Origin: Ignavibacteriales bacterium
Lineage (GTDB): Bacteria > Bacteroidota > Ignavibacteria > Ignavibacteriales > Melioribacteraceae
DNA: 64,000 nt
Reading direction: 5' to 3'
NCBI GenBank assembly: GCA_026390795.1
Contig: JAPLFG010000003.1
Span: 1,984,001-2,048,000, forward strand
A program made the position numbers and the translations under genes. The notes beneath the pieces were generated by a model. The model was not told where the DNA came from. It did not search any database and saw only the letters and a list, made by a program, of their open reading frames with translations. Positions 45,534-64,000 of this stretch are shown one piece after another (position 1 is the stretch's first letter; each line of letters starts with the position of its first letter).

Positions 45534-45549
45534 GGTGGAGAGAATATAA

Positions 45550-46476: not shown

Positions 46477-46479
46477 ACT

Positions 46480-46644: not shown

Positions 46645-46664
46645 AACTAAATAAAGGGAGAAAT

Positions 46665-48174: not shown

Positions 48175-48179
48175 ACATT

Positions 48180-48285
48180 ATTGAGACGGATAATCAAAAA
48201 TGTTCTTGGAAAAGAATAAATAATTAGATGAGATGAAAATTCAAAAATCGGCAGTGTTGGTCTTTAACATAACATGCCTTTAGGC
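48180..48285 (+). other. attC-like site with altered R' box
   Basis: The right half (TCGGCAGTGTTGGTCTTTAACATAACATGCC) matches the site ending at 46644, but R' reads TTTAGGC (48279-48285) instead of GTTAGGC. The G that is cut next to by integrases is replaced by T. Confidence 0.65.
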
Positions 48286-48300
48286 ATATTAGGGATAGTT

Positions 48301-49236: not shown

Positions 49237-49243
49237 TCCATAT

Positions 49244-49470
49244 GCCTAACGTCTGTAATAAATAAAAAGTCAAAAGTATAAAGATATTCTTGACCGATCC
49301 GTTATAGACTGATGTTAAATGTTTGCAAAACAAAGATAGATGTTGTTCAACAAAAATAATATTCAACATGAGTATTGTCTGAAAAACCGAAGTCAGAAAT
49401 GTGGGATAAATAAATCCCAAGGCTAAACTGTTTTTTCATGATTTTTTTTCTATAGACAACGACGTTAGGC
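49244..49470 (+). other. attC site
   Basis: R'' GCCTAAC (49244-49250) and R' GTTAGGC (49464-49470) are exact complements, with GTCT just inside R'' and AGAC just inside R'. The 227-bp body contains the ATTCTTGACCGATCCGT block and the GAAGTCAGAAA block found in other sites of this array. Confidence 0.9.
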
Positions 49471-49515
49471 GTAACTGTAAAACAATACAATCAAAACATC
49501 ATAGAGGAAAAAGTT

Positions 49516-50079
49516 ATGTCATCAGCAATGATTCACGAACAAATTGAAATATTAAAAAAGGGTGATGATGAAACCAGAGAAAATGCCATCGAGGCATTAG
49601 GAAATATCGGCCCCGATGCCATCTTAGCAGTTCCTCTCATAATCGCGGCAATTAAAGAGGATAATCTATGTTGGGCAGCAACCACAGCTTTAGGAAAGAT
49701 AGGCGGTAAAGATGCGACACAAGCTCTTTGTCATGCATTGCTTACTGATAAAGATGCGGGTGTGCAAATAAGAGCTGCTGAGAGTCTCGGGCGAATTGGT
49801 GATTCCGCTTCCCTACCTTCACTGATTAAGGCACTCGAAAACCCATATGAAGTGGTTCGTGCAGTGGTTATCGAAGAGCTTGCCATTGTGGGTGATAAGA
49901 CAATTGAACCTATTATCAAGAAAGTGTTAAATGATAGTAGTCAATTTGTTAGAGAATCAGCTGCAAAAGCCATGACAACTCTTAACAATAAGGCAATTAA
50001 AAAAACAGTAAGTAATACTAACTCAGAACCAGCCCCGCCCGCAAGAAAGAGCTGGCTTAAACGACTTTTTAAGAAATAA
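49516..50079 (+). CDS. HEAT-repeat (PBS-lyase type) protein
   Basis: A 187-aa cytoplasmic protein with four or five helical repeats of about 31 aa (ARENAIEALGNIGPDA-like, WAATTALGKIGGKDATQALC, IRAAESLGRIGDSASLPSLI, VRAVVIEELAIVGDKTIEPI), the pattern of HEAT/PBS-lyase scaffolds. A basic tail KSWLKRLFKK could touch membrane or nucleic acid. It is a binding scaffold, partner unknown; single-gene cassette. Confidence 0.85.
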   Translation: MSSAMIHEQIEILKKGDDETRENAIEALGNIGPDAILAVPLIIAAIKEDNLCWAATTALGKIGGKDATQALCHALLTDKDAGVQIRAAESLGRIGDSASLPSLIKALENPYEVVRAVVIEELAIVGDKTIEPIIKKVLNDSSQFVRESAAKAMTTLNNKAIKKTVSNTNSEPAPPARKSWLKRLFKK

Positions 50080-50095
50080 GAAATATTTACAGATT

Positions 50096-50138
50096 GTCGA
50101 ACAGGGCGCTGCACCCGAAGGCGGCAATTGTGTTATAA
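50096..50138 (+). other. Possible short attC
   Basis: GTCGAAC at the left and GTTATAA (50132-50138) at the right, with a GGCGCTGCACCCGAAGGCGG core. It is shorter than usual for attC and the L boxes are not clearly complementary. Confidence 0.4.
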
Positions 50139-50278
50139 TTTAAGGACTACTTTGAAAGTCAAGCTAGACAATTGGAGTTTCGTGTAAGAGAAGGTTCACC
50201 AATCTGGGATAAAACACACTGAGTATGATTCCAATAGAGCAAGTATAAAGATTAAAGCTTAATTAAGGAGATTTTATT

Positions 50279-51103
50279 ATGATTAATTTCTCAGAAAGAA
50301 ACATGGAAACAATGGCAACGGAAGGTGCTAAAAAAGTTCAGAATGTAGCAAAGGCATTTTTAGTTTTCGGAATCTTGAATATTCTAGTTGGTATTTTCCT
50401 CACAGCACTCGGTTGGTTTTTAGGGATATATAGCATAGTACTTGGGATATTGGAACTGATCAATTATAACCGATACTCGGCTATACCTCCTAAAACAACC
50501 AGTAACCCAATCTACATAAGTATTCTGGAAATTTTAAATTTTATAGCTGGCTCTCTGTGGACTGTAATAGCTGGTATAAACAATTTAATCCAACTTAGAA
50601 GCCCCGAAACAAAAGCATATTTTGCAATGCTTAAAAGTGGTATAAATACATCTTTTTTATCTTCACAACAATTATCTAAATCAAAGAAGTGTCCTAATTG
50701 TGCAGAAAATATACAAGCAGAGGCATTGGTTTGCCGACATTGTGGTTATAAATTTAATGAAGCAGATATTCAGCAGATAAAATTAATGGCTGAAACAGAT
50801 GCAAAAAAATTAGAACACCAGATTAAACTCAATGAGCAACGTAGTAAAATAAAGATCCGTTTATTTTGGGGTCGTTTTCTTCTTGTTGTCGCACTATTAT
50901 TTATTTCGCTCATTTTAATAATGATACTTGTTTATACTTTCAATCCTTCATCTAGATTTACAAACGGTAAACCTTGGGAGATGTCATCTTTTTTAACTAG
51001 TGTGTTTGTTACAACACTATTCTTTGTTTTACCACCTACTTTAGGTAGCTTTTTTCTATTTAAAAAGGTGAAAAAATTAAAAAAAGGATTTGGCTCTATT
51101 TGA
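50279..51103 (+). CDS. Membrane protein with central zinc ribbon
   Basis: A 274-aa protein. Two transmembrane helices lie near the start (about 25-60), with a third weaker one near 80. A zinc ribbon follows (CPNCAENIQAEALVCRHCGY, about 139-158), then a coiled-coil-prone helix and two more transmembrane helices (about 200-225 and 240-260). The ribbon resembles those of small zinc-ribbon membrane proteins of unknown role. The cassette-array protein at 55719 carries a very similar ribbon (CPFCSEEILADARKCKHCGE). AAGGAG before the ATG. Confidence 0.7.
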   Translation: MINFSERNMETMATEGAKKVQNVAKAFLVFGILNILVGIFLTALGWFLGIYSIVLGILELINYNRYSAIPPKTTSNPIYISILEILNFIAGSLWTVIAGINNLIQLRSPETKAYFAMLKSGINTSFLSSQQLSKSKKCPNCAENIQAEALVCRHCGYKFNEADIQQIKLMAETDAKKLEHQIKLNEQRSKIKIRLFWGRFLLVVALLFISLILIMILVYTFNPSSRFTNGKPWEMSSFLTSVFVTTLFFVLPPTLGSFFLFKKVKKLKKGFGSI

Positions 51104-51198
51104 ATAACCTCTTTTATCAAGAAGGAAAAACGGGGTAGGCAAAAGAGAAAATATTAGACATTATAGAAAATGCAAAATTAACTTGGGAGAAATTATTT

Positions 51199-51654
51199 AT
51201 GAAAACTGCTCTTGATTCTCTAATCATTATTAGTATTATATTAATTGCAGGCTGTACTCAAAGCAAGAAAGAAGTTCCAGTAAAAAGCGACAAGGTCAAT
51301 TTTACCGGTGTTATTAAAAGTGATGATGGTAAACCAGTACCGGCTGCCCTCGTTCAAATAGTTGAAGGAACAGACTCGGGCTGGCAATTAAAATTTAGTT
51401 CGGATGGTAAAATTGTTGATATGCCGGAACCTGTTAAAACAAATTCTGAAGGTCGTTTTAATGTTAATATCGATACGACAATACTTTCAAAATATAATTA
51501 TAAGATCTCAATGTTGGTGGCAACAGATACTCTGATTCGCCATTTTGTCCAGATAAGGGATGAAAGTCTAAAGATTCCAATAATAATAGTGGTTAAAAAA
51601 GGGGAACAAAAAGTTGATCTAAAAGAAATTATATGTATGGCTAATAAACAATAA
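51199..51654 (+). CDS. Lipoprotein with carboxypeptidase-like Ig domain
   Basis: A 151-aa lipoprotein (lipobox IAGC, Cys19). The mature part is one beta-sandwich: NFTGVIKSDDGKPVPAALVQ and TNSEGRFNVNIDTT are the two signature strands of carboxypeptidase-regulatory-like domains. Probably surface- or periplasm-exposed. It starts close behind an attC left-half remnant (51104-51130, GAATAACCTCTTTTATCAAG). Confidence 0.75.
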   Translation: MKTALDSLIIISIILIAGCTQSKKEVPVKSDKVNFTGVIKSDDGKPVPAALVQIVEGTDSGWQLKFSSDGKIVDMPEPVKTNSEGRFNVNIDTTILSKYNYKISMLVATDTLIRHFVQIRDESLKIPIIIVVKKGEQKVDLKEIICMANKQ

Positions 51655-51669
51655 AAAATTCATATGCTG

Positions 51670-51713
51670 AATATATAATCCGCGCGGCGGACTAAATGCA
51701 ACGTCTTTATACC
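51670..51713 (+). other. Degenerate short attC
   Basis: A hairpin CCGCGCGG/TCCGC...GCGGA, then ACTAAATGCAACG and TTTATAC (51706-51712) where GTTATAC is expected. The T replaces the conserved G. Confidence 0.5.
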
Positions 51714-51735
51714 ACATAAAAAGGAGGACAATACT

Positions 51736-52269
51736 ATGAGAATAAAAATATTGTGTAATAGCATAAGCTTTATTTTAATTATAGTATTTCTTTTAGGTTG
51801 CTCGAAAAAAATGCCGGAATTAAAAACTTCTGTAGGTATTCTAACTATTGCGAAAGTGACTCTTACTAAAATTGATCCATATACTTCTAATTCTGCTCCA
51901 GATGGATATCAATGCCTTAGCATAATATTTATAAATACTAATTCGAAAATCAATCCTGGTCAAATAAATGACTTTATTATAAGAGGTAACATCGATAGCT
52001 CACCAAATGTTATGTCTCATAAAACAACTATTACTGATGAAATAGATAAAAATAAAGTTACTAATGAAGGAGAAAGTCAGATTGTAAATTTTCAACAAGT
52101 ATTAAAAGATACCTACGTGATCGGTGATGATGGCTCTAAACCAATTAGGTATTGGGATGGTTTATCTGATGGGCAATTGTTCACTTCCTGTTTTATAAAA
52201 TCTACTGCAAATAAATATACTTTATATTGGCCCGGAAACGAACCTATTGAGCTTATTGTCTCAAAATAA
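51736..52269 (+). CDS. Hypothetical lipoprotein
   Basis: A 177-aa lipoprotein (lipobox LLGC, Cys22). Beta-rich mature domain with YQCLSIIFINTNSKINPGQ; no family recognised. AAGGAGG lies nine bases before the ATG. Probable single-gene cassette. Confidence 0.7.
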   Translation: MRIKILCNSISFILIIVFLLGCSKKMPELKTSVGILTIAKVTLTKIDPYTSNSAPDGYQCLSIIFINTNSKINPGQINDFIIRGNIDSSPNVMSHKTTITDEIDKNKVTNEGESQIVNFQQVLKDTYVIGDDGSKPIRYWDGLSDGQLFTSCFIKSTANKYTLYWPGNEPIELIVSK

Positions 52270-52333
52270 TTTATTGGATAAGGAAATTAAAATTAGTCTT
52301 CGGTTCAAAAAGTTTGCAACTATTAGATATTGT

Positions 52334-52756
52334 TGTATGACCTCTTTAATAATTAAAAAAAGCAAGAGGATAAAATAATTCTTGACCGATCCGTAAAGAC
52401 GGATAATTGAAAATGTTCTTTTGAATAACTGTATCAAGCGTTTTTTCGATCCGGTCGTGAAAATAAAATATTTGCATTCATCAAAGCAATGTTATTGATA
52501 TACATTAGCCTATCATTATTTGACAGATACCTCTTTTTAGTTTAAGTTGCAAAAGCAACAAAGATAAATCCACCATGCGTCATCAAATTCAAAATATCAT
52601 TTCCTTTCAGCTCTCGCGAAATATTAGTCGTAAGACTTTATACATATAAATTAACAAATGTTGTCTGTGAGACCGAAGTCAGAAAATTGGGATAAAAAAT
52701 CTCAACGATGAACTGTTTTTTCTTGACTTTCTTTTCTATAGACAACGTCGTTAGTG
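52334..52756 (+). other. Long attC-like region
   Basis: Begins with ATGACCTCTTTAATAATTAAA (R''-like with GAC instead of AAC), carries ATTCTTGACCGATCCGTAAA, then the 169-bp repeat copy B, and ends ATAGACAACGTC and R' GTTAGTG (52750-52756). At about 420 bp it may be two sites fused after loss of a cassette gene. There is no open frame of note inside. Confidence 0.65.
52518..52686 (+). repeat. 169-bp repeat, copy B
   Basis: Same length as copy A at 41187 with five single-base differences counted by eye. It lies within the long attC-like region before the T9SS cassette. Confidence 0.85.
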
Positions 52757-52796
52757 TCAATTGCCCTTTTTAAACAATTGCATGGGAGACTTAAAA

Positions 52797-53558
52797 ATGA
52801 AGAAGCTTATTATTTTATTGACTCTCGCAATTACGCTGTTGCTGATGGACGGTATAAATGCACAAGATTTTGTCACATATTCCCCCTCAGGTGAGTATAT
52901 ACAAACAGTATACCATTATTCCAATGGTGCTTTTTCTGGGATGTCTTATATTAAATATCTCAAGAAGGATAAAGGAGGTATAGGCACCGCTACTCTATCG
53001 GCAACAAACTCAGGTTATTATACCTCCACAGTAGAAACTGGCGAGATACTAAAAGTTACCCTGGAAATTAAAGGTAAATTTTTGTGGAATGCTGCATTTG
53101 GAAATGATTATACGGAGTTTCAATTATATCTATCATCGTCGGGTATAATTCAAAACTTTGCGTGTCGAGTATATCCCGCATTCACTCCACCAGCTACGTG
53201 GCGCAAGTTTACTTATGATTCATGTACTTCCATTACAATTGAGAAGTGGCAACCTACTAAAGTGGAAGAACCGGAACTTCAATCGTCACCAAAATCATTT
53301 TCACTATTCCAAAATTATCCGAATCCATTTAACCCAACTACAATAATCTCATACTCAATAGTGGAAGATAGTTACGTGAAACTAAAAGTCTTTAACTTAA
53401 TTGGTGAGGAAGTCAAGATTCTCGTTGATGGCAGACAAAAGTCTGGCAAATATTCAGTTGAACTTACAGCTCAGAATCTACCAAGTGGTTTATATTTTTA
53501 TAGAATGCAAGCTGGAAATTCTTATCAAGCAGTAAGGAAAATGATTTTACTAAAATAA
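52797..53558 (+). CDS. T9SS-secreted cassette protein
   Basis: A 253-aa protein starting at the ATG at 52797 (GGGAG eleven bases upstream; signal peptide ending GINAQ). A beta-rich domain of about 145 residues (SYIKYLKKDKGGIGTATLSA) of no known family is followed by the T9SS type A sorting domain (FQNYPNPFNPTTIISYSI ... VFNLIGEEVKIL ... GLYFYRMQAGN). The host's own T9SS tail, as seen at 16647, is therefore used by cassette cargo, which argues that this cassette came from a related organism. Confidence 0.85.
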   Translation: MKKLIILLTLAITLLLMDGINAQDFVTYSPSGEYIQTVYHYSNGAFSGMSYIKYLKKDKGGIGTATLSATNSGYYTSTVETGEILKVTLEIKGKFLWNAAFGNDYTEFQLYLSSSGIIQNFACRVYPAFTPPATWRKFTYDSCTSITIEKWQPTKVEEPELQSSPKSFSLFQNYPNPFNPTTIISYSIVEDSYVKLKVFNLIGEEVKILVDGRQKSGKYSVELTAQNLPSGLYFYRMQAGNSYQAVRKMILLK

Positions 53559-53563
53559 TTGGC

Positions 53564-53775
53564 AACTAACACGTAACTCTCCCAAGGAGTCCTTCGGACA
53601 AAGCGACCGCGTCTTTGAGTCGGTCTTTTGATGTAGTTATTGGCATTGGTATTTCAGAGTAGGTTTGTTGTTCAAAATTTATTTGTAAAACGAAGTTGAT
53701 TGTAAAACAAAAAAGGTTGTTGCTAAAAGTGTCATTGTCGTTTTGGGCGGCGCTTTAGTTGCAATGCCGTTAGCT
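53564..53775 (+). other. attC site
   Basis: R'' AACTAAC (53564-53570) partly complements its cassette start GTTAGTG; the right half ends GGCGGCGCTTTAGTTGCAATG, CC and R' GTTAGCT (53769-53775). Confidence 0.7.
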
Positions 53776-53782
53776 TGAAAAT

Positions 53783-55027
53783 ATGGGTATAATCATAAAC
53801 AATTCATCTGAAAGACTTTTTGCAGAGTTATGTGGCAAAAATTATTTAAAGGGCTTTGTATTTCACAGTCCAAAGTATGGAATAAATTTGGGTGGTGAAG
53901 CTGGTGATGTTGTGTTATGGATTAGAAATCAAATTGTTGTTTTTGAGATTATGTGGCGGAATGTTGCAAAAGCTAAAAATGAATCGACAAAAAATTATTT
54001 GAGAAAAATTCGTGAAAAACGGAAACAGTTAGAAAACGATTTTAATGTTTTTTCTACTACACCAGAACAGCTCAAGCTTACAAATGAAATAGGTGAAATT
54101 GTTGAGTTTACAAGGCAAAATTTTCATAGAAAAAATTTCTCCGGCGTTATTCTTCTGGATATCGAAAAATCCACAGAACAAATCAATTATCTATCATATC
54201 GTAGAACTCTTGAATCAAATTTCCCGATCTCAATATTCACAAAATCTGATTTTTTATTTCTTACCACGGAAGCTGATACAATTCCCGATTTGACTTATTA
54301 TTTTAAGGATCGATATAATTTTCTAAAAACTATATTCGATTACGATTACGAATTATTTCTAAATATAAATAGAGGTATCGAGAAGGATTTAATGGCTTTC
54401 TATAAAATGAATGAATATCAATTCCCATTGGAAGAATGGAACAAATCAAAGGAAAAGAATTTTGGGGAATTATATGAAACTACATTTGCCGAGAAGATAA
54501 AACAAAGGGATAAAGAAAATAAAGATTCTTATATAGTTGATGAGATAATCGATGAATTACGAAATAATAATGAAATAAATAATTCTACTCTTTTACATTC
54601 GTCTGAGTTGGCTATTTTTACACGAAGGGCTAGAGCTGAAATACTTGCAAAAAAAATATCATATGCGTTTGAAAAAATGCAGAATGGTAAAGGGTTACGT
54701 TATTGGGGAATCTATAATCAAACAACTGAATGTTGGTTGTTATTTTATTTCCAATATGGAGGTGATTCTGATAAATTTAATCAGAGTGTATTGCGGTACT
54801 GTAGACTAAAGCTATTCTATGAAATGAATTGGAATAATTTTAAATATTCGGTATTTGGCTATGGTTTTCGAAAATCCACAATAGAAACTGGTAATACTTT
54901 CGATCAAGTATTCTTATGTATCGAAGATCCTTTTAATTATAGAGAACTTGATATCGAAGAACTAAAAGAGGCGAATAAATTATTTGGTAATATAAAACAA
55001 AAAGAAATAAAAGAGTTTCCTGAATAG
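53783..55027 (+). CDS. Hypothetical protein, possible nuclease
   Basis: A 414-aa soluble protein. Near the start GGEAGDVVLWIRNQIVVFEIMW gives an Asp and, 12 residues later, a Glu on hydrophobic strands, the spacing seen in PD-(D/E)xK nuclease-like folds; the usual Lys is not obvious. A long helical middle (KNYLRKIREKRKQLENDF) and a C-terminal beta region follow. No family recognised with certainty. The ATG lies only 8 bp after the attC R' box, and the R'' box follows the stop by two bases, so the cassette is almost all gene. Confidence 0.6.
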   Translation: MGIIINNSSERLFAELCGKNYLKGFVFHSPKYGINLGGEAGDVVLWIRNQIVVFEIMWRNVAKAKNESTKNYLRKIREKRKQLENDFNVFSTTPEQLKLTNEIGEIVEFTRQNFHRKNFSGVILLDIEKSTEQINYLSYRRTLESNFPISIFTKSDFLFLTTEADTIPDLTYYFKDRYNFLKTIFDYDYELFLNINRGIEKDLMAFYKMNEYQFPLEEWNKSKEKNFGELYETTFAEKIKQRDKENKDSYIVDEIIDELRNNNEINNSTLLHSSELAIFTRRARAEILAKKISYAFEKMQNGKGLRYWGIYNQTTECWLLFYFQYGGDSDKFNQSVLRYCRLKLFYEMNWNNFKYSVFGYGFRKSTIETGNTFDQVFLCIEDPFNYRELDIEELKEANKLFGNIKQKEIKEFPE

Positions 55028-55028
55028 G

Positions 55029-55086
55029 TTCAAGCTAATCCGCCGCTCAACACGGACAGCGTTTTTCAGTGCGGCATTGCGTAAAA
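55029..55086 (+). other. Short attC site
   Basis: R'' TTCAAGCTAAT complements the start of its cassette (GTTAGCTTGAA) at all but one position; CCGCCGCT and AGTGCGGC are the paired inner boxes; the right end GTAAAAC (55080-55086) departs from GTTAAAC by one base. The 58-bp length is classical for attC. Confidence 0.75.
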
Positions 55087-55106
55087 CATTTTAAAAAGGA
55101 AATATT

Positions 55107-55595
55107 ATAAAACATTCGCTGCTCATTTTAACAATATTATTTATTTCTAACAATTATGCTCAGTCTAGGGAGGGATTCATCTCACTAAAAAGATATGCTG
55201 GTGAATATTCCGCCGACAAAGTGTTAAGTGATAAAAGGATAAAATCAATTCTTATCAAAATGATGGCTAGAGAATACGAGCATTTAATTACAAATTTGAT
55301 GGTCACTGGGCCTGTTGATTTAATTAGTGGAAGTATCGTGATTGAGGGGAATGCACCACACAAGGGCGGAGAAGAAATGGCAGTACTGGATTTAAATCTT
55401 GCTACAGGAATAATTAGGGCGGCGATATACTCTAATACTAAAATTATTATCTATAGCGATAAGGATAAATATGATGGTATCCTTGATAAAAATAATTATG
55501 AGCAACTTCCTACGAGCATCTTAAATTGGATAGTAGTTGTAAACAACAGAAATTCTTATCAAACAAATAGACCAAAAAATGTAATTATAAAATAA
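55107..55595 (+). CDS. Exported hypothetical protein with an ATA start
   Basis: The frame starting at ATA (55107) encodes KHSLLILTILFISNNYAQS, a textbook signal peptide cut after YAQS, and AAAAAGGA lies six bases before the ATA. No ATG, GTG or TTG occurs until 55221, deep inside the mature protein, and a stop lies at 55092. So either ATA (or ATT at 55104) is used, or an ATG has mutated. The mature part (about 143 aa: DLISGSIVIEGNAP, MAVLDLNLATGIIRAAIYSN) is of no known family. Confidence 0.6.
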   Translation: MKHSLLILTILFISNNYAQSREGFISLKRYAGEYSADKVLSDKRIKSILIKMMAREYEHLITNLMVTGPVDLISGSIVIEGNAPHKGGEEMAVLDLNLATGIIRAAIYSNTKIIIYSDKDKYDGILDKNNYEQLPTSILNWIVVVNNRNSYQTNRPKNVIIK

Positions 55596-55718
55596 TATTC
55601 TAAATTATTTTTAATAATGGTTACAGATAGAGTCCATTTATCGTTAATAATGAAGATGTTATCATTAAGAAATAGTATACAATATTTTCGATAACTTTTG
55701 ACGCAAGGAATAATAATT

Positions 55719-55955
55719 ATGGCCGAAACGAAAAAATGTCCGTTTTGCTCAGAAGAAATATTGGCTGATGCAAGAAAGTGTAAACACTGCGGTGAATATT
55801 TAGATCCGTCATTAAAAGAAAAACCCTCTCCACAACAACCGACTGTTGTTGCAAAAGAAGGATGTTTTTTACAAACACTAAATGTTGGTTGCATAATTGT
55901 AGCTGTTATAATTGGAATAATAATCCTCGTGGTTATTTTTTCAAGTGCACATTAA
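55719..55955 (+). CDS. Small zinc-ribbon membrane protein
   Basis: A 78-aa protein from the ATG at 55719 (AAGGAA upstream). The zinc ribbon CPFCSEEILADARKCKHCGE (residues 6-25), a proline-rich linker and one transmembrane helix (GCIIVAVIIGIIILVVIF) form the whole protein. It resembles many zinc-ribbon/TM proteins of unknown role. No clear attC separates it from its neighbours. Confidence 0.75.
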   Translation: MAETKKCPFCSEEILADARKCKHCGEYLDPSLKEKPSPQQPTVVAKEGCFLQTLNVGCIIVAVIIGIIILVVIFSSAH

Positions 55956-56063
55956 AAGAAAATATTTAATAACTAGCCACCTAAAAGAGTCGGGTTTTAC
56001 AAAAAGTGTTTGTAGTATCTGAGTGATTGCGAACAACATTTATAGTAAATAATACGGAACAAA

Positions 56064-56864
56064 ATGAAACTAAAAGCTAGAGTGTGGGAAGTTCTTGAGA
56101 ATACGAAACCAGATGATAAACCTGGAAGGATTGACGATGTATTTTTAATGACACTGATTTTCCTAAATGTTATTGCTGTAATACTTGGTTCAGTAAAATG
56201 GATTGAAGTAGAATATAAATCTTTCTTAGATGGTTTTGAGTTTTTCTCAGTTATGGTTTTTACAATAGAATATCTTTTACGTTTCTGGTCTTGTGTAATA
56301 GATAAAAAATATTCTAAAACAATTCTTGGTCGTTTCCGTTACGCATTGACTCCATTAGCTTTAATTGATTTGGTTGCAATTCTCCCCTTCTACCTTCCAT
56401 TCGTTGGTTTGGATTTAAGAATTGTTCGTCTCTTCAGACTAATTAGAATTTTTAGAGTTGCCAAAGCTGCGCGTTATGTCTCTTCATTAAAATTATTAGG
56501 TAGAGTATTCAAATCAAAAAAAGAGGAATTGATTATAACTTCTATTGTGATGATTATCCTATTAATAATTGCTTCATCACTAATGTATTTTTTCGAGAAT
56601 GGTGTTCAACCAGATAAATTCGGTGACATTCCATCTACAATGTGGTGGGCTATTGCCACATTAACTACAGTTGGATATGGTGATGTTTATCCTATAACGG
56701 GTGAAGGGAAAATAATAGCTTCAATTGTAGCCATCTTAGGTATTGGTTTATTTGCTTTACCAACTGGGATTTTAGGTGCAGGTTTTGTTGAAGAATTTCA
56801 AAAATCCAAAAAACAAATTGTTAAAAACATTTGTCCTCATTGTGGAAAAGAAATAAATAATTAA
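56064..56864 (+). CDS. Voltage-gated-type potassium channel with zinc-ribbon tail
   Basis: A 266-aa six-helix channel subunit of the Kv type. The voltage-sensor S4 is present (LRIVRLFRLIRIFRVAKAAR, Arg every third residue), followed by S5, the selectivity filter TVGYGDVYP and S6 (IIASIVAILGIGLFALPTGI). It forms a tetrameric K+ channel in the inner membrane. After S6 the protein ends in CPHCGKEINN, half of a zinc ribbon (one CxxC), unusual for the family. The start is AAAATG just after GGAAC. A channel as integron cargo is uncommon. Confidence 0.9.
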   Translation: MKLKARVWEVLENTKPDDKPGRIDDVFLMTLIFLNVIAVILGSVKWIEVEYKSFLDGFEFFSVMVFTIEYLLRFWSCVIDKKYSKTILGRFRYALTPLALIDLVAILPFYLPFVGLDLRIVRLFRLIRIFRVAKAARYVSSLKLLGRVFKSKKEELIITSIVMIILLIIASSLMYFFENGVQPDKFGDIPSTMWWAIATLTTVGYGDVYPITGEGKIIASIVAILGIGLFALPTGILGAGFVEEFQKSKKQIVKNICPHCGKEINN

Positions 56865-56866
56865 GT

Positions 56867-57052
56867 GCAAAACCAGCTTTTCCAACCGACTGCGTTTTCA
56901 TTGCGGCAGTGGTAAAGTTTTGGGAATAAGTGAAAAAGCAAACATTGTAAGTAACATTGTTCTGATAAATAAAATTTTAATAATTATCGGCGCTTGCTTT
57001 TCGGTATCACATTGTAGTTATGGGCAGCGCTTTAGTTGCAATGCCGTTATAC
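56867..57052 (+). other. attC site
   Basis: R''-like GCAAAAC, L'' CAGCTTTTCCAACCGAC (nearly the L'' of the 44551 site), right half GGCAGCGCTTTAGTTGCAATG, CC and R' GTTATAC (57046-57052). Confidence 0.75.
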
Positions 57053-57108
57053 CGTAAATAATAATATTGTATTTTTTTTATCATGTGTTAACAACCATAA
57101 AAATCAAA

Positions 57109-58002
57109 ATGAGTATAAAATGTAAATTGGGTCTCCATACTTGGAATGGATGTAAATGCAAGGATTGTTATAAGTATCGTGACGAACAACATCATTGGAT
57201 TGGTTGTAGATGTTCACAATGTGGAAAAACAAGAGACGAACAGCATGCTTGGAGTAAAGATTGTGAAAAATGTTCGATATGTGGTAAAACCAGAGATAAG
57301 CAACATGATTGGAATGGTTGTAAATGTTCGATGTGTGAAAAAACCAGAGATGAGCAACATAATTTGGAGAAGGATTGTGAAAAATGCTCAATATGTGGCA
57401 AAATTAAAGCGAACCAACATGATTATAAAATACATATTGCGAAATGTTCTAAGTGTGGAAAAGAATTGAATAAAGGATCTTTTTTGGATAATAGAGATGG
57501 GCGAAGATATAAATGGATAAGAATTGGAAACCAAATAATAATGGCTGAAAACTTTGCTTACAAACCTGATAATGGAAAATATTGGGCATATGAAGATAGT
57601 TATACGCTTAGTGAGGATACTGTTGCTAAATTTGGTTATTTGTACGATTGGGAAACTGCTAATAAAGTTGCACCAGATGGCTGGCATTTACCCACCAAGG
57701 AAGAATGGCTGGCATTATTTTCAGATTTTAAAAAATTTTTGTATAAAGAATTTTATGTAGAATGGAAATATTTGCCTGAAAAAGAAGATGGAACGAAATA
57801 TACCTTATTTGGTGGCATGTATAACCACCGAAATGGTTGTTGTTCATATGGCAATGGCCAATCTTTCTTTTGGAGTTCTACTGAAGTTGATGGAGAATTA
57901 GCGTTTGGCTTATATATACCTGAAAGGACTTCAGAAGACATACCTGGAATAAAATACAACAGACGTGGTGATGGTTTAAGTGTCATTCTTTTTCAGGACT
58001 AA
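57109..58002 (+). CDS. Cys-rich repeat protein fused to a FISUMP domain
   Basis: A 297-aa protein from the ATG at 57109. Residues 1-125 hold six repeats of about 19 aa of the form C-K-C-S-x-C-G-K-T-R-D-E-Q-H-x-W, each with a CxxC or CxCxxC and a His, so a row of zinc sites is likely. Residues 128-297 are a FISUMP domain (WIRIGNQIIMAENFAY, FGYLYDWETANKVAPDG, WHLPTKEEW, FFWSSTEV). No signal peptide. The repeats are also near-identical at DNA level (about 57 bp units). Cassette ends at 57046 and 58141 match. Confidence 0.8.
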   Translation: MSIKCKLGLHTWNGCKCKDCYKYRDEQHHWIGCRCSQCGKTRDEQHAWSKDCEKCSICGKTRDKQHDWNGCKCSMCEKTRDEQHNLEKDCEKCSICGKIKANQHDYKIHIAKCSKCGKELNKGSFLDNRDGRRYKWIRIGNQIIMAENFAYKPDNGKYWAYEDSYTLSEDTVAKFGYLYDWETANKVAPDGWHLPTKEEWLALFSDFKKFLYKEFYVEWKYLPEKEDGTKYTLFGGMYNHRNGCCSYGNGQSFFWSSTEVDGELAFGLYIPERTSEDIPGIKYNRRGDGLSVILFQD

Positions 58003-58140
58003 TGATTTATTTGGCAGTTTTTTGAAATGATGGCATAGAGAAGATACAACTTTGTACCATTTTAGAGGAACAGTTGTCTGCATACAGCGAATCCAATAAG
58101 CGTTACATATTACCACAAGTGCTGCCAATAAAAATCGCTG

Positions 58141-58309
58141 CGGTATAAACCGCGTCTCAAGTGGAACGCTGTAGCCGGTCGTTACATTTGCTGTAAAATA
58201 TTTTTTGTGATAGTTGAAGAACGGAAGTAAATAAAAAAATATAAACAATAAGTCGTTGTATTTGTAGCGGAATCCTTATGGCGTCCGCTTAAACGAAATG
58301 CCGTTATAA
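58141..58309 (+). other. attC site
   Basis: R'' CGGTATAAA complements the cassette start GTTATACCG; inner boxes AAGTGGA and TCCGCTT pair; spacer AAATGCC and R' GTTATAA (58303-58309), 16 bp before the next gene. Confidence 0.85.
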
Positions 58310-58324
58310 AGCCTAAGGTAAAGT

Positions 58325-59581
58325 ATGAGCTTCAATAGAAATAAGGCTATAAAATTATTTAGAGTGAAATCCGCAGAAGCTATTAAAAACCAAATTGAAG
58401 AAATTAAACAGATAGCTATAGACTTTGCTCAAAGAAATGCAACAAAATCCGGTATGTATATTAAAGCCCATACTGATTTGTATGTCAAACATATTAAAGC
58501 CAATCTCCAAATATTTGTTGACACTATTTTTGAACAAATTGGTGAAGGCAATACTATTACACAAAGTGATGAAGAAGAGATAATTAATTATTTAAGAATA
58601 TACGTTAAAGGCGAAATTAGTCAAAAGCAAAGTAGTATAAAACAAGTCTTGGCCTCAACTGGTATAAATCAAACTGCTATTACTGATGCTCAGATGTTAG
58701 CGATATCATCCAGCTTTCATGAGGAGATGAATCTTAAAACAGACCATATACAACATCTTATAGAGAAACATAATTCTGACGCACAAATAAAAATAAAGAA
58801 TAAATTTCTTGAGGAATTTGAAGAACTTGAGGCACATCAAAATATTATTATTTCTTTTATTATTGAGACGCATAGAAGCGTGCCTGTCGAAAAAAGAAAG
58901 GAATTTTTCGTATCAACCTGTTCAAGTGGCACATCAATGGTAAATCCATCAGTACCCAATAGTTCTCTCGACGTTTCTACGGTTGATCTTAAAATTCTTG
59001 ATGCTGCCGGTTATATTAAAATCGAAAAGCATGTTCATCCTAGTGTTGATTTTTCATTCCATCCTACTTCAAAAGGAATAAAGTATTACGAATATTTAAA
59101 ACAAAATTATACTGGTTCGTTCCAGCAAATTGATTCCGAAATAAAGAATTACTTATCGAATTCAAACTTTGCTGTAGTGTATCAAATAGCTTTTGCTAAA
59201 TGGAAAGAAGCTGAAAATTTATTATGGAAAGCTGAGAACCAGATTAATTACTCAACAATTGGTCATTTATGTCGTGAATCTATTCAAGAATTTATCGATT
59301 CAATAATTTTAAGATATAATCTTGCTGATAAATATCAAGATAAAACACATACAAAAAATAGGCTTGAAGGAATTATTCTTTATAACAAGAATCAATTGGG
59401 GAAAACTATACCAAAATTTTTAACAGCAATAGAGGATTATTGGAATAACCTAATAGATATTATACAAAGACAAGAACACTCTGGATTGAAAGATGGCGAA
59501 GAACTTGGCTTTGAAGATGCGAGACGCGTAGTATTTCATACTGGAATATTACTTTATGAAATAAGTAGAACTATTAAATAG
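58325..59581 (+). CDS. Helical protein with HEPN-like Rx4H motif
   Basis: A 418-aa soluble protein, mostly helical. The N-terminal 200 residues form long amphipathic helices (AIKNQIEEIKQIAIDFAQRN). A short winged-helix-like part lies at about 225-270 (DLKILDAAGYIKIEKHVHPS). The C-terminal 110 residues have HLCRESIQEFIDSII, then an RRVVFHT motif (Rx4H) on a helix near the end, the signature of HEPN RNases. HEPN proteins are typical of toxin and anti-phage systems. The family is not certain. It is the last gene of the array and its R'' (59583) complements its own start. Confidence 0.6.
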   Translation: MSFNRNKAIKLFRVKSAEAIKNQIEEIKQIAIDFAQRNATKSGMYIKAHTDLYVKHIKANLQIFVDTIFEQIGEGNTITQSDEEEIINYLRIYVKGEISQKQSSIKQVLASTGINQTAITDAQMLAISSSFHEEMNLKTDHIQHLIEKHNSDAQIKIKNKFLEEFEELEAHQNIIISFIIETHRSVPVEKRKEFFVSTCSSGTSMVNPSVPNSSLDVSTVDLKILDAAGYIKIEKHVHPSVDFSFHPTSKGIKYYEYLKQNYTGSFQQIDSEIKNYLSNSNFAVVYQIAFAKWKEAENLLWKAENQINYSTIGHLCRESIQEFIDSIILRYNLADKYQDKTHTKNRLEGIILYNKNQLGKTIPKFLTAIEDYWNNLIDIIQRQEHSGLKDGEELGFEDARRVVFHTGILLYEISRTIK

Positions 59582-59582
59582 C

Positions 59583-59660
59583 GCTTTATAACCTCTTTAA
59601 TTAGTGAAAAAGCACGAGGATAAAATAATTCTTGACCGATCCGTGATAGGAAGATTATTT
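59583..59660 (+). other. Terminal attC left half, right half missing
   Basis: R'' GCTTTATAAC, CCTCTTTAATTAGTGAAAAAGC and ATTCTTGACCGATCCGTGATA are present, but no GTTA box follows before unrelated sequence begins. This marks the right border of the array, cut by a deletion or by the insertion event. Confidence 0.75.
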
Positions 59661-59842
59661 CTGGTTCAAAAAATGGAACCAAATCAATCGCTTGGCTCAT
59701 TGGAATAGGCCCCCAGATTGTATACCTCACCTAGCAGGTCGCCCGGAAACGCAGCTGAAAAAAGAAGCCAAAGAATAATTGACGTACCCCTTTTATTTCT
59801 GGTTTATAAATCGATCTCTAAAATTTTTTTGTAAAAAATTTA

Positions 59843-60202: not shown

Positions 60203-60667
60203 TTAAAGCAGCCGTCGTTCAACAAAGGATGTATACTTATCCTCAGCAAAGATGATATGATCGAAGATGTTGATCTCAATAATCTTTCCTACCTCGACAA
60301 GCTTCTTAGTTATCGAAATATCTTCATTGCTGGGTTCCGTATTTCCACTAGGATGATTGTGGGCTATTATAATGTTGGCGCAATTCGCGACAATCGCACT
60401 TCTGAATACTGCCCTTGGATCTACAACGGAGGCAGTTAGACTACCGGAAGATATTATCTCAAAACCCTGGACTCTGTTGGCACTGCTTAACCAGGAAACG
60501 AGAAAGACTTCTTTGGATTCTTCTTTTAACAAGGGGTTGAATAGATTATAAAAATCTTGCGGGGAGGTTATTTTCTTTCTAGGTAGTTCAGAGTATTCTG
60601 GGTATTTAATTGAAGTATCTTTGAAAGTCCAGACAAGTGTTTTGAATCTTACTTTCATGTCAGCCAT
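60203..60667 (-). CDS. RadC-like JAB domain protein
   Basis: About 154 aa from the ATG at 60667, chosen because it overlaps the stop of the preceding gene by eight bases; longer frames would overlap it by more than 100 bp. The JAMM/MPN+ metal site reads HNHPSGNTEPSNED (H-x-H, then S and D), with an upstream Glu in EVFLVSWL. RadC-like proteins are common in phages and ICEs, probably as deaminase- or peptidase-fold enzymes; the role in DNA repair is disputed. The N-terminal HhH part of chromosomal RadC is absent. Confidence 0.85.
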   Translation of the reverse strand: MADMKVRFKTLVWTFKDTSIKYPEYSELPRKKITSPQDFYNLFNPLLKEESKEVFLVSWLSSANRVQGFEIISSGSLTASVVDPRAVFRSAIVANCANIIIAHNHPSGNTEPSNEDISITKKLVEVGKIIEINIFDHIIFAEDKYTSFVERRLL

Positions 60668-61133
60668 TGGTAACTGCTCCAAATCCGTTTCCGTTGATTT
60701 TACTTCTTGCAATGAAGAGAGTAATTCCAATTCTCGAAACGTCAACGAGACCTCCAAGCTTCTCATTTATCTTAAGTGCGTCTTCGTAGCTATGCAGCAT
60801 CAACTCATAATAGTTATCGTGTGTCGAACCGTTACCGTTTTGTTCAGCTTTTTTTTCTTCAAGTACCAATACTTCATAATCAACCTTGATGCCTTTCCCA
60901 TTCTGTTTCGCCGTCTTGGTTATCTGAACTTTCGATCCACGCTTCAGATTTATCAGCTTCTCGTTTACATCATCACTCGGTGAGAAGAATGTCATCTCTT
61001 CACCGTTACATTCAACTGCATATGCAAAGTATTGCCCGTACTTACTTTCTCCTTTAAGCGGACTGTCGAAGAGCAATTTCATTATCACTGGTTGATTCAG
61101 TTCTGTTAACTCTAGTTTTTTGCGGTCTGACAT
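60660..61133 (-). CDS. OB-like element protein
   Basis: About 157 aa from the ATG at 61133 (AGGAAGG nine bases before it). LNQPVIMKLLFDSPLKGESK, YAYAVECNGEEMTFFSPSD-like strands and RGSKVQITKTAKQNGKGI resemble an OB-fold nucleic-acid-binding domain. A helical tail (YYELMLHSYEDALKINEKL) follows. It lies between the Gam-like and RadC-like genes, with overlaps on both sides, so a ssDNA-binding role in replication or recombination is likely but not proven. Confidence 0.55.
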   Translation of the reverse strand: MSDRKKLELTELNQPVIMKLLFDSPLKGESKYGQYFAYAVECNGEEMTFFSPSDDVNEKLINLKRGSKVQITKTAKQNGKGIKVDYEVLVLEEKKAEQNGNGSTHDNYYELMLHSYEDALKINEKLGGLVDVSRIGITLFIARSKINGNGFGAVTNG

Positions 61134-61632
61134 TTTCATCATCCTTCCTGAGTTTATAACTAAACTCTGTCTCTCCTTCAATGATTTTCACACCCTTGGG
61201 TGGGAAGTTAGTTTTCATGAAGGATTTTATTTTTGTTAAATCCGGTTTTATTTGTTCCGGTATTACAGACAACATTTCTTTCTTTGCGTGCTTTAAGAAA
61301 AGATCAAGATCTGCAATTTCAATTCGGTCCGGCTTTTTGTGCATCTTCAAAGTTCCGTGAGGCATCTCTAAAGTCTTTTCACCTTTCTCTCTGATGTATG
61401 CTTCTAATTTCTTTTCAAGCCAATCAACTTTATTCTGAATCGTTGAGTTTTTAGAAAGAATAAATCTATTGATCAGTTCAATTTCTTTTTCAGCTTCATA
61501 GAAGTTATTAGCTATCTGATCTTGCAGCTTGCTAATTTCAAGTAGTAGCAAATCATAAAACGCTTGTGTTCGCAGTTCTTCTTTTTCCTCAGCCTCTTTT
61601 ATGAGATCTTCGAGAAATGTTTTTTCATCCAT
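61054..61632 (-). CDS. Mu Gam-like host-nuclease inhibitor
   Basis: A 192-aa protein of the phage Mu Gam family, which binds DNA ends as a Ku-like ring and blocks exonucleases. A long coiled-coil helix (about 20-85: LQDQIANNFYEAEKEIELIN, VDWLEKKLEAYIRE) is followed by the signature LEMPHGTLKMHKKPDRIEI, then DLDLFLKHAK and a basic helix with KIKSFMKTNFPPKGVKIIEG. It protects linear DNA during transfer or replication. It overlaps the 30-residue peptide gene by eight bases at its start. Confidence 0.85.
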   Translation of the reverse strand: MDEKTFLEDLIKEAEEKEELRTQAFYDLLLLEISKLQDQIANNFYEAEKEIELINRFILSKNSTIQNKVDWLEKKLEAYIREKGEKTLEMPHGTLKMHKKPDRIEIADLDLFLKHAKKEMLSVIPEQIKPDLTKIKSFMKTNFPPKGVKIIEGETEFSYKLRKDDENVRPQKTRVNRTESTSDNEIALRQSA

Positions 61633-61717
61633 CTTTTTTATCGTCTCCTCCGCCTAGTGCGTCAATAATTATTTGTATTACAACTTTGATTATTTTTAGA
61701 ATTATGTGCCAATCCAT
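61625..61717 (-). CDS. 30-residue hydrophobic peptide
   Basis: ATG preceded by a perfect AGGAGG four bases away; the peptide MDWHIILKIIKVVIQIII continues DALGGGDDKKDG and stops with TGA overlapping the Gam-like ATG (ATGGATGA). One amphipathic or membrane helix with an acidic tail. The strong ribosome binding site and the overlap support translation. It may be a leader peptide that couples Gam synthesis or a small membrane-active peptide. Confidence 0.5.
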   Translation of the reverse strand: MDWHIILKIIKVVIQIIIDALGGGDDKKDG

Positions 61718-61791: not shown

Positions 61792-62676
61792 CTATACATA
61801 CAAGTCCTCCTCGTTGATATCTACTCCGCAGCATTCGCACTTGTTGAAGAGTTTTCCTAAGAAGTAAGTTGTGGTTCCTAAACAGTAGGGGCACTCAACT
61901 ATCATCTCCTCATCCCTAGAGCGGTACATAAATTCTTGTTCGTAAAACTTACGTGGATGATAGTGTTCGTATGATTCAACACCTTCACTTCCGAATATCA
62001 ATCCATGATTATTTTTCATTTCATAGAAATGGTAGTTGCCTTCACCAAGATTAAATCCACGGTGTGACTTTGCTTTTAGTCCGAGACCTTCTTGCATGAT
62101 GCGTCGTTCAGAACAGAAATAGAGAATATCATTCTCTGTGTCGTAGTAGAGATCAATCGGATTGTCTTTCTTCACGAGAATAAGTTTTTCGGGCTCATTT
62201 TTGTCTATAGCTGCAAATGCAAAACTTCCTTCCAGTTTATCAAATACTCGTTTGATTTTATCTCCTTTACCTCTGGTAGAGAGTACTTGCAGTATTGCTT
62301 CACTGTCAACTTCACCGTCACGTTTGTTCTTTCCGAAAATATCTTTGTCGTTATAAATAATTCCGTTGTGGACTATTGCGATGCCCTGCTTGTTAAAGAG
62401 CGGATGATTATTAGCGGCGTTCTTACTGCAACCTTGCGTCGCTGCGCGAGTATGAAGAATCATGATCTTCGGTAATTCCAATTTTACCCAATCATCTGAC
62501 TTAACGAAGAGTGATGATTTGATGGGGGATTTGTTTACAACTAGTTGGTTGTCTTGTATAAATGCAAAACCCGAAGCATCTCTACCTCGGGTCTCTAGCA
62601 ATGAAAACATTTCTGTTATCTGATCTTTGTTTGGTCTCTTATCGCGAAAGCAATAGTATCCCATTATACCGCACAT
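61792..62676 (-). CDS. Class II glutamine amidotransferase with zinc-ribbon tail
   Basis: A 294-aa Ntn-type amidotransferase. Cys2 (MCGIMGYYC) is the nucleophile after Met removal. ETRGRDASG, LHTRAATQG and NNHPLF with HNGIIYN are the glutamine-binding and oxyanion motifs. No synthetase or isomerase domain is fused, so ammonia must go to a separate partner. The C-terminus is a zinc ribbon (CPYC ... CECCG). It is the third gene of an operon with the double zinc-finger protein and the amidoligase, so it probably supplies nitrogen for, or works with, that ligase. GGAGG precedes the start. Confidence 0.85.
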   Translation of the reverse strand: MCGIMGYYCFRDKRPNKDQITEMFSLLETRGRDASGFAFIQDNQLVVNKSPIKSSLFVKSDDWVKLELPKIMILHTRAATQGCSKNAANNHPLFNKQGIAIVHNGIIYNDKDIFGKNKRDGEVDSEAILQVLSTRGKGDKIKRVFDKLEGSFAFAAIDKNEPEKLILVKKDNPIDLYYDTENDILYFCSERRIMQEGLGLKAKSHRGFNLGEGNYHFYEMKNNHGLIFGSEGVESYEHYHPRKFYEQEFMYRSRDEEMIVECPYCLGTTTYFLGKLFNKCECCGVDINEEDLYV

Positions 62677-62708
62677 GGTATTTCCTCCTTTAATGTTTTA
62701 AGTGATCG

Positions 62709-63311
62709 TTATGCTTCGACGAGTTCTTTTACTTGTGAGATTTGTTTAATGAGGTTTAATACTAATTCGAGATTTTCTTTACGAAGAGAGTAACTGATCC
62801 CTAATCTGTTACAACCGATTCCTTCAATTACTTTTAGATCAAGTCCATTTATGAGAATAAATTCTCGTACTTGATCAATGATGTTTGGGCTTGCAGATAG
62901 CTGATACTCATCTCTGTCTTGCAGCCCGAAGAGGTAGAGTGATGATTCAATCAGTCCTATTTTATCGCGTATTTTTTGAAGAAGAAAATCCTTTTTGTTG
63001 ATCTTGAGTAATGTTTTGTGTTTGCATTTTCCAGACAGCCAACTTCTCGATAACTCAAGAATTAATTTTCTGTCTGAATCATAAACTGGAGGATTGTCCG
63101 GCGAATCGTCATCATGCATGTTCTCATAGCACTCATTACAAAAAGGATTACCGTCATTATCCCAAAGAGTTTCTTCACGGAATATTATTTCGTCGCAGCG
63201 ATTACAATAGTTAAAGGACTCTGAAAAACAATCTTCGCAATACGGTTCTTCTCTTGCATACCTTACTGAGTGTTCCTCGAGCTCACATCCACAATCATGA
63301 CAATGTCTCAT
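62709..63311 (-). CDS. LIM-like double zinc-finger protein
   Basis: A 200-aa protein. Three zinc-binding groups lie in the first 65 residues: CHDCGCEL, CEDCFSESFNYCNRCDE and CNECYENMHDD, the pattern of LIM-type or double-ribbon fingers. The C-terminal 100 residues are a helical domain of no known family (ELSRSWLSGKCKHKTLLKIN). Its ATG overlaps the amidoligase stop by four bases (ATGA). It is likely a partner or adaptor of that enzyme. Confidence 0.7.
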   Translation of the reverse strand: MRHCHDCGCELEEHSVRYAREEPYCEDCFSESFNYCNRCDEIIFREETLWDNDGNPFCNECYENMHDDDSPDNPPVYDSDRKLILELSRSWLSGKCKHKTLLKINKKDFLLQKIRDKIGLIESSLYLFGLQDRDEYQLSASPNIIDQVREFILINGLDLKVIEGIGCNRLGISYSLRKENLELVLNLIKQISQVKELVEA

Positions 63312-64000
63312 GCTGCCTCCTTGATTATTCCCCAGTTGGGAAGAATGTTTACGTTCCAGTTTAACTTTTTGTTTAGAAGAAGATCCATTTCCTTCAATCC
63401 TTCCTCACAATCAGTTGGAATTGTTTTTAGATTTTCTTTTAGGTTACGGAGGAATGTAATCGAGTGCTGCCTTCCTTTGATCTCAGTGAAATCAAGATTG
63501 TCTTCGGTTACTCCGAGTACCGCAAGTTTTGCGAGTGTAAAGGTTACAAGAGTAGTAGAAGGAGAGAGAAGCCAACTTCCGGGAGTTCTGTACTCAAAAC
63601 CATGCGGCTGTTTTCGAAATGCTTTCCGTTTACCGTAGCCGCACTTCTCTCGTTTTGTTCTTTGTTCTCTATCGTCTATACAATTTGATAGTGAATACAA
63701 TACAGTATCAAGAGCATCAACGATATTTGGTTCGGGTTGAAGTGAGAAATGCAGATGACCTCCTAATGATAGGTTATCTACGAAGTGACCAGCATAAAAT
63801 TCTAAGTCCGGTGCTTTAGTGTGGCCATACTCTAGAATTTGAAATACTTTTGAGGTGGTATCAATGGGACTCTCAGAGTAGCCCGGACGAATTTCGGCTA
63901 TGGCCTCACAGCCATCTAGTCCGAAAGAAGAGTTTGATTTGAAGTAGTTGTGGGCGGGTACATATTTTCCGTTTAAGCGGCACAGTAATTCGGGATCTGC
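63308..64000 (-). CDS. phiEco32-type COOH-NH2 ligase (amidoligase), partial
   Basis: At least 231 residues; the N-terminus lies beyond the right edge. The visible part begins ADPELLCRL (the family's DPE near the start), then FGLDGCEAIAEIRPG (D-G-x3-E-x-RP), FYAGHFVDNLSLGGHLHF (GGHxHF) and YGKRKAFRKQPHGFEYRTPG followed by SWLLSP. These are the signature blocks of COOH-NH2 ligase type 2, an ATP-dependent amidoligase related to glutamine synthetase and glutamate-cysteine ligase. It would join a carboxylate to an amine on a small molecule, peptide or cell-wall peptide. Translationally coupled to the zinc-finger gene. Confidence 0.85.
   Translation of the reverse strand, partial: ADPELLCRLNGKYVPAHNYFKSNSSFGLDGCEAIAEIRPGYSESPIDTTSKVFQILEYGHTKAPDLEFYAGHFVDNLSLGGHLHFSLQPEPNIVDALDTVLYSLSNCIDDREQRTKREKCGYGKRKAFRKQPHGFEYRTPGSWLLSPSTTLVTFTLAKLAVLGVTEDNLDFTEIKGRQHSITFLRNLKENLKTIPTDCEEGLKEMDLLLNKKLNWNVNILPNWGIIKEAA

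Follow-up and report, generated by a model that had tools for sequence, protein, structure and literature searches.

What might an amidoligase, a small zinc-finger protein, and a glutamine amidotransferase do together on a bacterial chromosome? The question is raised by three adjacent genes at the right-hand end of a 64,000-nucleotide stretch of an Ignavibacteriales genome (hereafter, the window; G000:C3:1984001-2048000; source genome of 4.08 Mb in five contigs). The DNA to the right of the window was included in the reading, and positions in locus L002 are converted to window positions by adding 56000. We found that the three genes are inherited together in a constant order. We tentatively propose, with somewhat less than even confidence, that they constitute one amidation unit with a finger protein as its adaptor, and that this unit would be the swappable front of a mobile module for DNA entry or counter-defence. 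The genes are as follows.

63308-64021 (L002:7308-8021), minus strand: PF14395 COOH-NH2 ligase (amidoligase) of 237 amino acids, assigned from Pfam, motifs, and fold.
62709-63311, minus strand: LIM-like protein of 200 amino acids, with two putative Cys4-type fingers (residues 4-61) and a C-terminal alpha/beta domain of about 100 amino acids.
61792-62676, minus strand: stand-alone class II (Ntn) glutamine amidotransferase (GAT) of 294 amino acids, assigned from Pfam and carrying a CxxC...CxxC tail.

An earlier description of this DNA, made from its letters alone (the sequence-only reading), had presented the three genes, which are read in the order amidoligase, LIM-like, GAT, as translationally coupled. 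This is borne out for the amidoligase and LIM-like genes, which overlap by ATGA, and not for the GAT gene, which starts 32 nt past the LIM-like stop and has its own strong ribosome-binding site, with AAAGGAGG in front. The same reading had drawn the operon at 61792-64000. An operon is indeed present there, and it extends to the left into genes for Gam-like, OB-like, and RadC-type proteins. The sequence to the right of the window, where the remainder of the operon had been expected, holds the start codon of the amidoligase (G000:C3:2048021). The first 21 bases of the gene therefore lie outside the window and 63308-64000 inside. Next comes a type I restriction-modification system that diverges from the amidoligase, with HsdM as its first gene, 317 bases from the amidoligase start.

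The family calls for all three proteins were supported by Pfam and profile evidence. The amidoligase matches PF14395 well above the curated Pfam cut-off (E 7.8e-32; 110.9 bits, cut-off 25). Its motifs DPEL, GGHxH, and YG...R...YGxEYRT are common to two phage PF14395 proteins (25-27% identity), and the active-site motifs are invariant in twelve full-length copies. In VIA comparisons, its predicted structure falls within the glutamine synthetase/YbdK-type fold, matching YbdK (1r8g; Z 12.1, rmsd 3.6, 215 residues) and next Dop, a depupylase (Z 12.0), and PafA, which ligates Pup (Z 11.5); glutamine synthetases score Z 8.8 or less. Foldseek alone gave a weak signal (1tt4, a predicted glutathione synthase, probability 1.00, E 6.9e-3; YbdK, E 6.7e-2). 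The amidotransferase matches GATase_6 (E 4.4e-18, Pfam), and its closest solved relatives are GlmS (E 4.8e-10). Met1-Cys2, H75-x-R77, H103-N104-G105, and D124, the class II motif residues, are invariant in nine GATs, as is the C-terminal CxxC...CxxC tail, which resembles a zinc ribbon. Class II amidotransferases release ammonia from glutamine, and enzymes of the glutamine synthetase/YbdK/PafA fold convert an ATP-activated carboxylate into an amide. Because of this knowledge of the two folds, we propose a reaction in which the amidotransferase would split glutamine and supply ammonia, and the amidoligase would activate a carboxylate with ATP and join it to that ammonia or to another amine.

In the finger protein, the residues C4, C7, C25, C28, C36, C39, C58, and C61 are invariant in 10 homologues and predict two zinc sites. 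The two finger halves are separated by a gap of 7 residues, longer than the 2 residues of a canonical LIM domain. Among PDB entries, the family profile matches LIM domains from eukaryotes, at a lowest E of 6.1e-4. The proteins are acidic, with isoelectric points of 4.3-5.2 across the family and a predicted value of 4.8 for the window copy, and plain DNA binding is therefore disfavoured. We suggest that the acidic finger protein would bind the ligase and pick its target, most likely a protein or a peptide. In a structural model of this protein (mean pLDDT 83, pTM 0.48), VIA compares the C-terminal domain to pyroglutamyl peptidase (Z 7.5, rmsd 2.9, 99 residues) and to poly-gamma-glutamate hydrolases (Z 5.8-6.0). 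We did not adopt a hydrolase assignment, since Z values below 8 may reflect a common arrangement and the best Foldseek E value was 9.9e-3.

That the three genes belong together is indicated by their distribution. PF14395 is present in 5 of 296 genomes of the phylum, all five from the order of the window genome. Across 391 genomes of the class, the amidoligase profile matched 14, of which 10 carry a full-length copy (12 full-length copies in total). Strong matches to the LIM-like protein (E <1e-70) occur in exactly these 10 genomes; the count leaves out the 4 of 14 amidoligase-positive genomes with fragments only, as well as LIM-like matches weaker than 1e-70 (in G468, in G593, and at a second place in G070, G070:C35). 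The chance of a 10-for-10 overlap among 391 independent genomes is about 5e-20, a value that is overstated, the genomes being related. In all 11 loci with a strong LIM-like gene, the end of an amidoligase gene lies before it and a GAT gene after it (in L015, the contig holds just the first 43 residues of the GAT). Gam-like and OB-like genes come next in all 10 loci whose contig continues, and beyond them, in nine fully readable loci, RadC is found in two and DUF932 in three (tblastn). Hence the unit heads a longer conserved operon with Gam-like and OB-like genes and, in some loci, RadC or DUF932. The sequence-only reading had named a distribution with the three genes rarely together as grounds for giving it up; within the class, we found the opposite.

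Selection also appears to maintain the genes. Of nine pairwise Nei-Gojobori comparisons of the three genes, eight gave dN/dS values of 0.04-0.12 and one, for the most recent pair, gave 0.205, as expected from genes under purifying selection. Because the values are low in all three genes, we do not ascribe the observation to chance. They also bear on the possibility that the unit no longer has a function and is the decaying remnant of an early region from a phage or plasmid. Such a relic would fit the seven N-terminal amidoligase fragments in the 391 genomes, five of them with an internal stop codon, and the lack of visible structural phage genes near the window locus. Given purifying selection on all three genes and twelve full-length amidoligases with invariant active-site motifs, we consider this explanation very unlikely. 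In one genome, G434 (L047, L048, L133), the unit apparently occurs more than once, with different 5′ neighbours: two contigs each carry an amidoligase copy (96.5% identity between the two) and end 11 bases past its stop, and a further short contig carries the genes that come after the amidoligase.

Is the finger protein a true partner of the ligase? We addressed this with related gene sets elsewhere. A scan of viral contigs with the LIM-like profile returned five (L039-L043), four of which (L039-L042) have the fingers fused to Amidoligase_2 (PF12224, above cut-off) and a class II GAT close by. The GAT gene begins 12 bases past the fusion gene in L041 and L042, and one small gene intervenes in L039 and L040; L043 ends within the finger gene. 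The same set is present in the phage records MW202733 (L139; fingers by the LIM-like profile, E 1.9e-8) and MT839723 (L140; fingers by CxxC pattern). Fingers, Amidoligase_2, and an adjacent class II GAT, with both enzymes above their Pfam cut-offs, are found in L039, L041, L042, L139, and L140; the GAT of L040 was recognised by the GAT profile built in this analysis. At the second G070 locus (L090, G070:C35), a fusion is followed by an amidotransferase-like gene under the Pfam cut-offs, and weaker still are gp105 and gp106 of Mycobacterium phage Marvin, both under cut-off. Fingers, amidoligase, and amidotransferase therefore occur with two different ligase families, fused or separate. These loci (L039-L042, L139, L140, and L090) resemble the window in bringing together a finger module, an amidoligase, and a class II GAT, and differ from it in that the fingers and a PF12224 ligase form one chain, whereas the window fingers and PF14395 ligase are separate proteins. 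Judged from gene architecture, the fusions are the best evidence in support of the finger protein and the ligase working together, and they bear out the earlier supposition that the finger protein belongs with the ligase. By Rosetta-stone logic, they also predict that fingers and ligase bind each other.

The sequence-only reading had further regarded the ligase as a phage enzyme, and this does not hold for the window, where the unit is chromosomal, on a contig of 2.56 Mb. Neither the amidoligase (E 1e-3) nor the LIM-like protein (E 1e-2) has a relative in 50,697 phage records searched by single-protein tblastn, and two viral-contig scans with the amidoligase gave no match, although more distant phage members of PF14395 exist. 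By eye, no capsid, terminase, or tail genes were seen between window position 57 kb and a point 32 kb to the right of the operon; for the remainder of the window, open reading frames (ORFs) were listed untranslated. Given the lack of visible structural phage genes over this range and the negative phage and viral-contig searches with the amidoligase, we rejected a prophage at the window locus.

The closest known gene sets include those of phages. An amidoligase/amidotransferase cassette is known in phage UFV-P2 (PMC3890496, in the portion of that paper available), and cassettes of this kind are present in the phage records QDWS535 and NV1. The LUZ24/PaP3/UFV-P2-type cassette comprises a PF14395 ligase, an unknown protein of about 190 amino acids, Amidoligase_2, a class II GAT, and an ATP-grasp protein. 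As in that cassette, a PF14395-type ligase is followed in the window by a protein of about 200 amino acids and, further on, by a GAT on the same strand (for UFV-P2, PMC3890496, same portion), and as in LUZ24/phiEco32-type cassettes, the PF14395 ligase and the class II GAT share one operon. Unlike in LUZ24/phiEco32-type cassettes, Amidoligase_2 and ATP-grasp were not found in the ten proteins of window 56-64 kb (on the other side, the Pfam scan covered the first restriction gene), and the unit is chromosomal, with Gam-like, OB-like, and RadC genes downstream. The middle protein differs too, being LIM-like here, whereas the two phage middle proteins that were read have no such fingers. With YbdK and PafA/Dop, the ligase shares the fold (Z 11.5-12.1 over 215-226 residues) at only 9-14% identity, and to our knowledge those systems have no GAT partner. 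In the open-licence literature, we found no paper showing what the amidoligase/amidotransferase pairs of phages modify. A finger partner and a setting beside restriction or integration islands were likewise not found in print among open-licence papers, judged mostly from listings.

In one alternative, the unit would serve small-molecule or envelope chemistry, either making a gamma-glutamyl or amidated metabolite or amidating cell-wall material. The YbdK-type fold is compatible with such a role. In Arthrobacter phage Kovu and Vibrio phage 1.208.B, gamma-glutamyl cyclotransferase genes lie beside an amidoligase and a GAT, and in Bacillus phage 031MP004 beside an amidoligase with no annotated GAT. 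Cell-wall modification has also been suggested in print for phiEco32 (PMC10580990, in the part of the text available). It is not obvious, however, what the finger protein would do in such chemistry. With Pfam, neither an ATP-grasp nor a cyclotransferase family was detected in the ten proteins of window 56-64 kb, and the neighbours in the operon are DNA-handling genes. We therefore regard this alternative as unlikely, while giving it some weight.

The DNA-handling genes follow the GAT in the window as listed below.

61625-61717, minus strand: putative micro-ORF of 30 amino acids, hydrophobic, overlapping the Gam start, noted from its position across loci.
61054-61632, minus strand: Mu Gam-like DNA-end-binding protein of 192 amino acids (PF07352, phrog_2205).
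60660-61133, minus strand: OB-like, probable single-stranded DNA-binding protein, labelled by position and look only.
60203-60667, minus strand: RadC-type JAB-domain protein (Pfam), for which a longer start at 60766 is possible.

The Gam-like protein passes the PF07352 cut-off (33.3 bits, cut-off 28.3) and matches phrog_2205 (8.7e-13). The OB-like protein has no independent label, with no Pfam match and no PDB family match by profile. A candidate micro-ORF lies near or overlaps the Gam start in all 10 amidoligase loci examined, and a similar one is present in at least 3 of 10 loci without an amidoligase (L123, L126, L128); these candidates have about 24-57 codons and are mostly hydrophobic or amphipathic.

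The Gam/OB module is distributed more widely than the unit at its front, with OB-like profile matches in 54 of the 391 genomes. Gam-like and OB-like genes are adjacent in 12 of 14 further stretches that were fetched, two of which (L131, L133) carry parts of the amidoligase operon; the exceptions are L134, without a Gam-like gene, and L127, whose OB-like gene is known from the OB-like profile search only. In a sister locus without amidoligase (L121), ArdC (ArdC-N with an MPTase domain, Pfam) lies beside Gam/OB, and by eye L122, L125, and L132 have RHH genes ahead of Gam. Because Gam/OB pairs also occur with other genes in front, the amidoligase unit is one of several front cassettes of the module. 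Three of the loci without amidoligase carry related proteins of 723-836 amino acids before Gam/OB (L121:11561-14035, L122:6635-8806, L125:11541-14051), with a GGA/GDxDDS motif reminiscent of two-barrel RNA polymerases; the one of the three that was scanned, from L121, had no Pfam family above cut-off and no PADLOC match.

A swap of front cassettes can be read directly at a site shared within one genus, between G550 (L049) and G132/G566 (L123/L124). A segment of 1.6 kb, beginning 65 bases ahead of Gam and running to the end of the OB-like gene, is 78% identical in DNA, and 3 kb of the neighbouring metal-ATPase region is 81% identical. In front of the same Gam/OB pair, G550 has the amidoligase, LIM-like, amidotransferase, and RHH genes with a type IIG restriction enzyme, and G132/G566 have instead a sigma/LuxR-like gene and a gene for a 1,706-residue protein. 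The front cassette was thus swapped at this site. This case comes from a genus other than that of the window, in which an empty-site comparison found flanks full of dispersed repeats and no clean orthologous site. On the 5′ side, BLAST similarity between loci, short repeats aside, stops no more than 64 bases ahead of the amidoligase start, close to a GGTATAAG-type motif (GG[TCA]ATAAG) located about 40 bases before that start (window-locus copy, G000:C3:2048053-2048060). The motif is found at all 12 full-length copies and, besides the window's, at 13 of 18 other amidoligase loci or fragments. Because it also precedes some Gam modules without amidoligase (L123, L124, L127), it marks a wider family than the amidoligase unit.

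The composition of the module suggests in which process the unit may take part. Gam protects DNA ends. A survey of proteins injected by mobile elements describes ArdC as a shield against restriction and lists RadC among their domains (PMC5512222, in the part of the text available). The present loci resemble such entry and polyvalent proteins of the ArdC/RadC type, which belong to phages and conjugative elements, in having RadC in the window operon and ArdC-N in the sister locus, and differ from them in that the window locus is chromosomal and made of single-domain genes. Within the part of that survey available, there is no whole-word mention of amidoligase, Gam, DUF932, or LIM. The company of Gam, RadC, and ArdC therefore points to counter-defence or to the establishment of mobile DNA, and the constant part of the module (Gam-like and OB-like proteins, with RadC, DUF932, or ArdC in some loci) would be of a DNA-entry or anti-restriction type.

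The 5′ neighbours of the unit, which are readable for 11 of the 12 full-length copies (the exception, L017, has hardly any 5′ flank), agree in part with this proposal. Restriction systems or Druantia adjoin the unit in five of the 11 flanks: type I restriction in the window locus and L015, a type III enzyme with DUF262-type proteins in L014, Druantia DruE/DruF in L045, and type IIG restriction in L049. Among the amidoligase fragments, L018 and L051 adjoin type I restriction genes, L053 a UvrD/GajB-like helicase, and L055 polysaccharide-type genes by eye, with no such neighbour recognised for L052. What the fragments retain is the N-terminal part of the ligase, which is the part next to the 5′ neighbours, a pattern that fits loss of the module by events keeping the cargo side. 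At a PADLOC threshold of 1e-10, a match named at least 7 of the 31 proteins on the 5′ side and no more than 3 of the 31 on the 3′ side; the corresponding contrast of 132 versus 3 model families is overstated, as many models describe each protein type, and the per-protein counts are fairer. This comparison covered ORFs of at least 150 amino acids, 31 proteins per side, from nine of the 12 full-length loci (eight with a 5′ side, as L017 ends there), within 9 kb, a limit that leaves out the 2,042-residue Druantia protein of L045; for one 3′ ORF, the first ATG was taken as the start.

To the left of the operon, in window 41000-59700, single genes often have behind them dispersed repeats of about 40-190 bases, of which the genome holds many further copies. 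Another contig encodes an integron integrase (G000:C4:277-1212; 435 bits against a cut-off of 265). This left neighbour looks like a chromosomal integron cassette array. A tyrosine recombinase at 30026-31090, about 30 kb left of the operon, whose match to the integron-integrase profile is under the cut-off, may lie at the far boundary of a larger accessory island.

Several observations weigh against an adaptor-guided amidation unit with a counter-defence role. Six of the 11 flanks have no established defence system on the 5′ side, and four (L016, L047, L048, L050) have phage-type integrases. The sigma-54 activators of L046 and also L048 match the PADLOC RtcR model through the AAA domain only and may be ordinary regulators, and the flank of L044 consists of polysaccharide-type genes by eye. 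The 3′ side is itself not free of PADLOC matches, and the neighbours may be there by insertion rather than function. As for the proteins themselves, the mean pLDDT of the amidoligase model is only 68. The Pfam LIM match (PF00412; E 0.0016, in two stretches) scores 19.1 bits, under the cut-off of 22.9, and for this reason we write LIM-like rather than LIM. The ligase in the phage fusions is PF12224 and not PF14395. Because Marvin gp105 and nine other phage amidoligases are unmatched by the LIM-like profile at E 10, the fingers are not a general feature of phage amidoligases. Finally, each of the five module proteins scanned matches none of the PADLOC-DB 2.0.0 families at 0.001.

This last result counts equally against a reading in which the unit is itself a component of antiphage defence, modifying an incoming phage protein with Gam and OB as sensors or helpers. 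The adjoining restriction systems and Druantia would suit such a component, as would its patchy, remnant-rich distribution (any match in 14 of 391 genomes, full length in 10). Gam, RadC, DUF932, and ArdC are of DNA-entry or antirestriction types, however, and not defence effectors, and the Pfam scan revealed no toxin-like gene in the operon. We judge a defensive function rather unlikely. Comparably doubtful is a narrower proposal, in which the genes form a mobile "border module" of defence and integration islands. There, the LIM-like adaptor would steer the PF14395 ligase and GAT to a restriction or defence protein, or to the micro-ORF product, switching that target and letting new DNA and defence genes enter. 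If true, the genes would form a conflict system based on protein amidation, in which the finger protein is an exchangeable part that sets specificity, in parallel with the phage finger-ligase fusions.

We tentatively retain the broader proposal of an amidation unit with a finger adaptor, which would act as the swappable front cassette of a small mobile module that often borders restriction or other accessory islands. Because the module is of the DNA-entry type and often has such borders, the job of the unit is probably to modify a host or rival factor in a conflict, for example by blunting restriction of incoming DNA. The set is here reduced to three proteins with a dedicated finger partner, beside DNA-handling genes and often beside restriction or integration islands, and it offers a short, testable system. 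These observations suggest that the three genes are a protein-modifying tool in conflicts between bacteria and mobile DNA.

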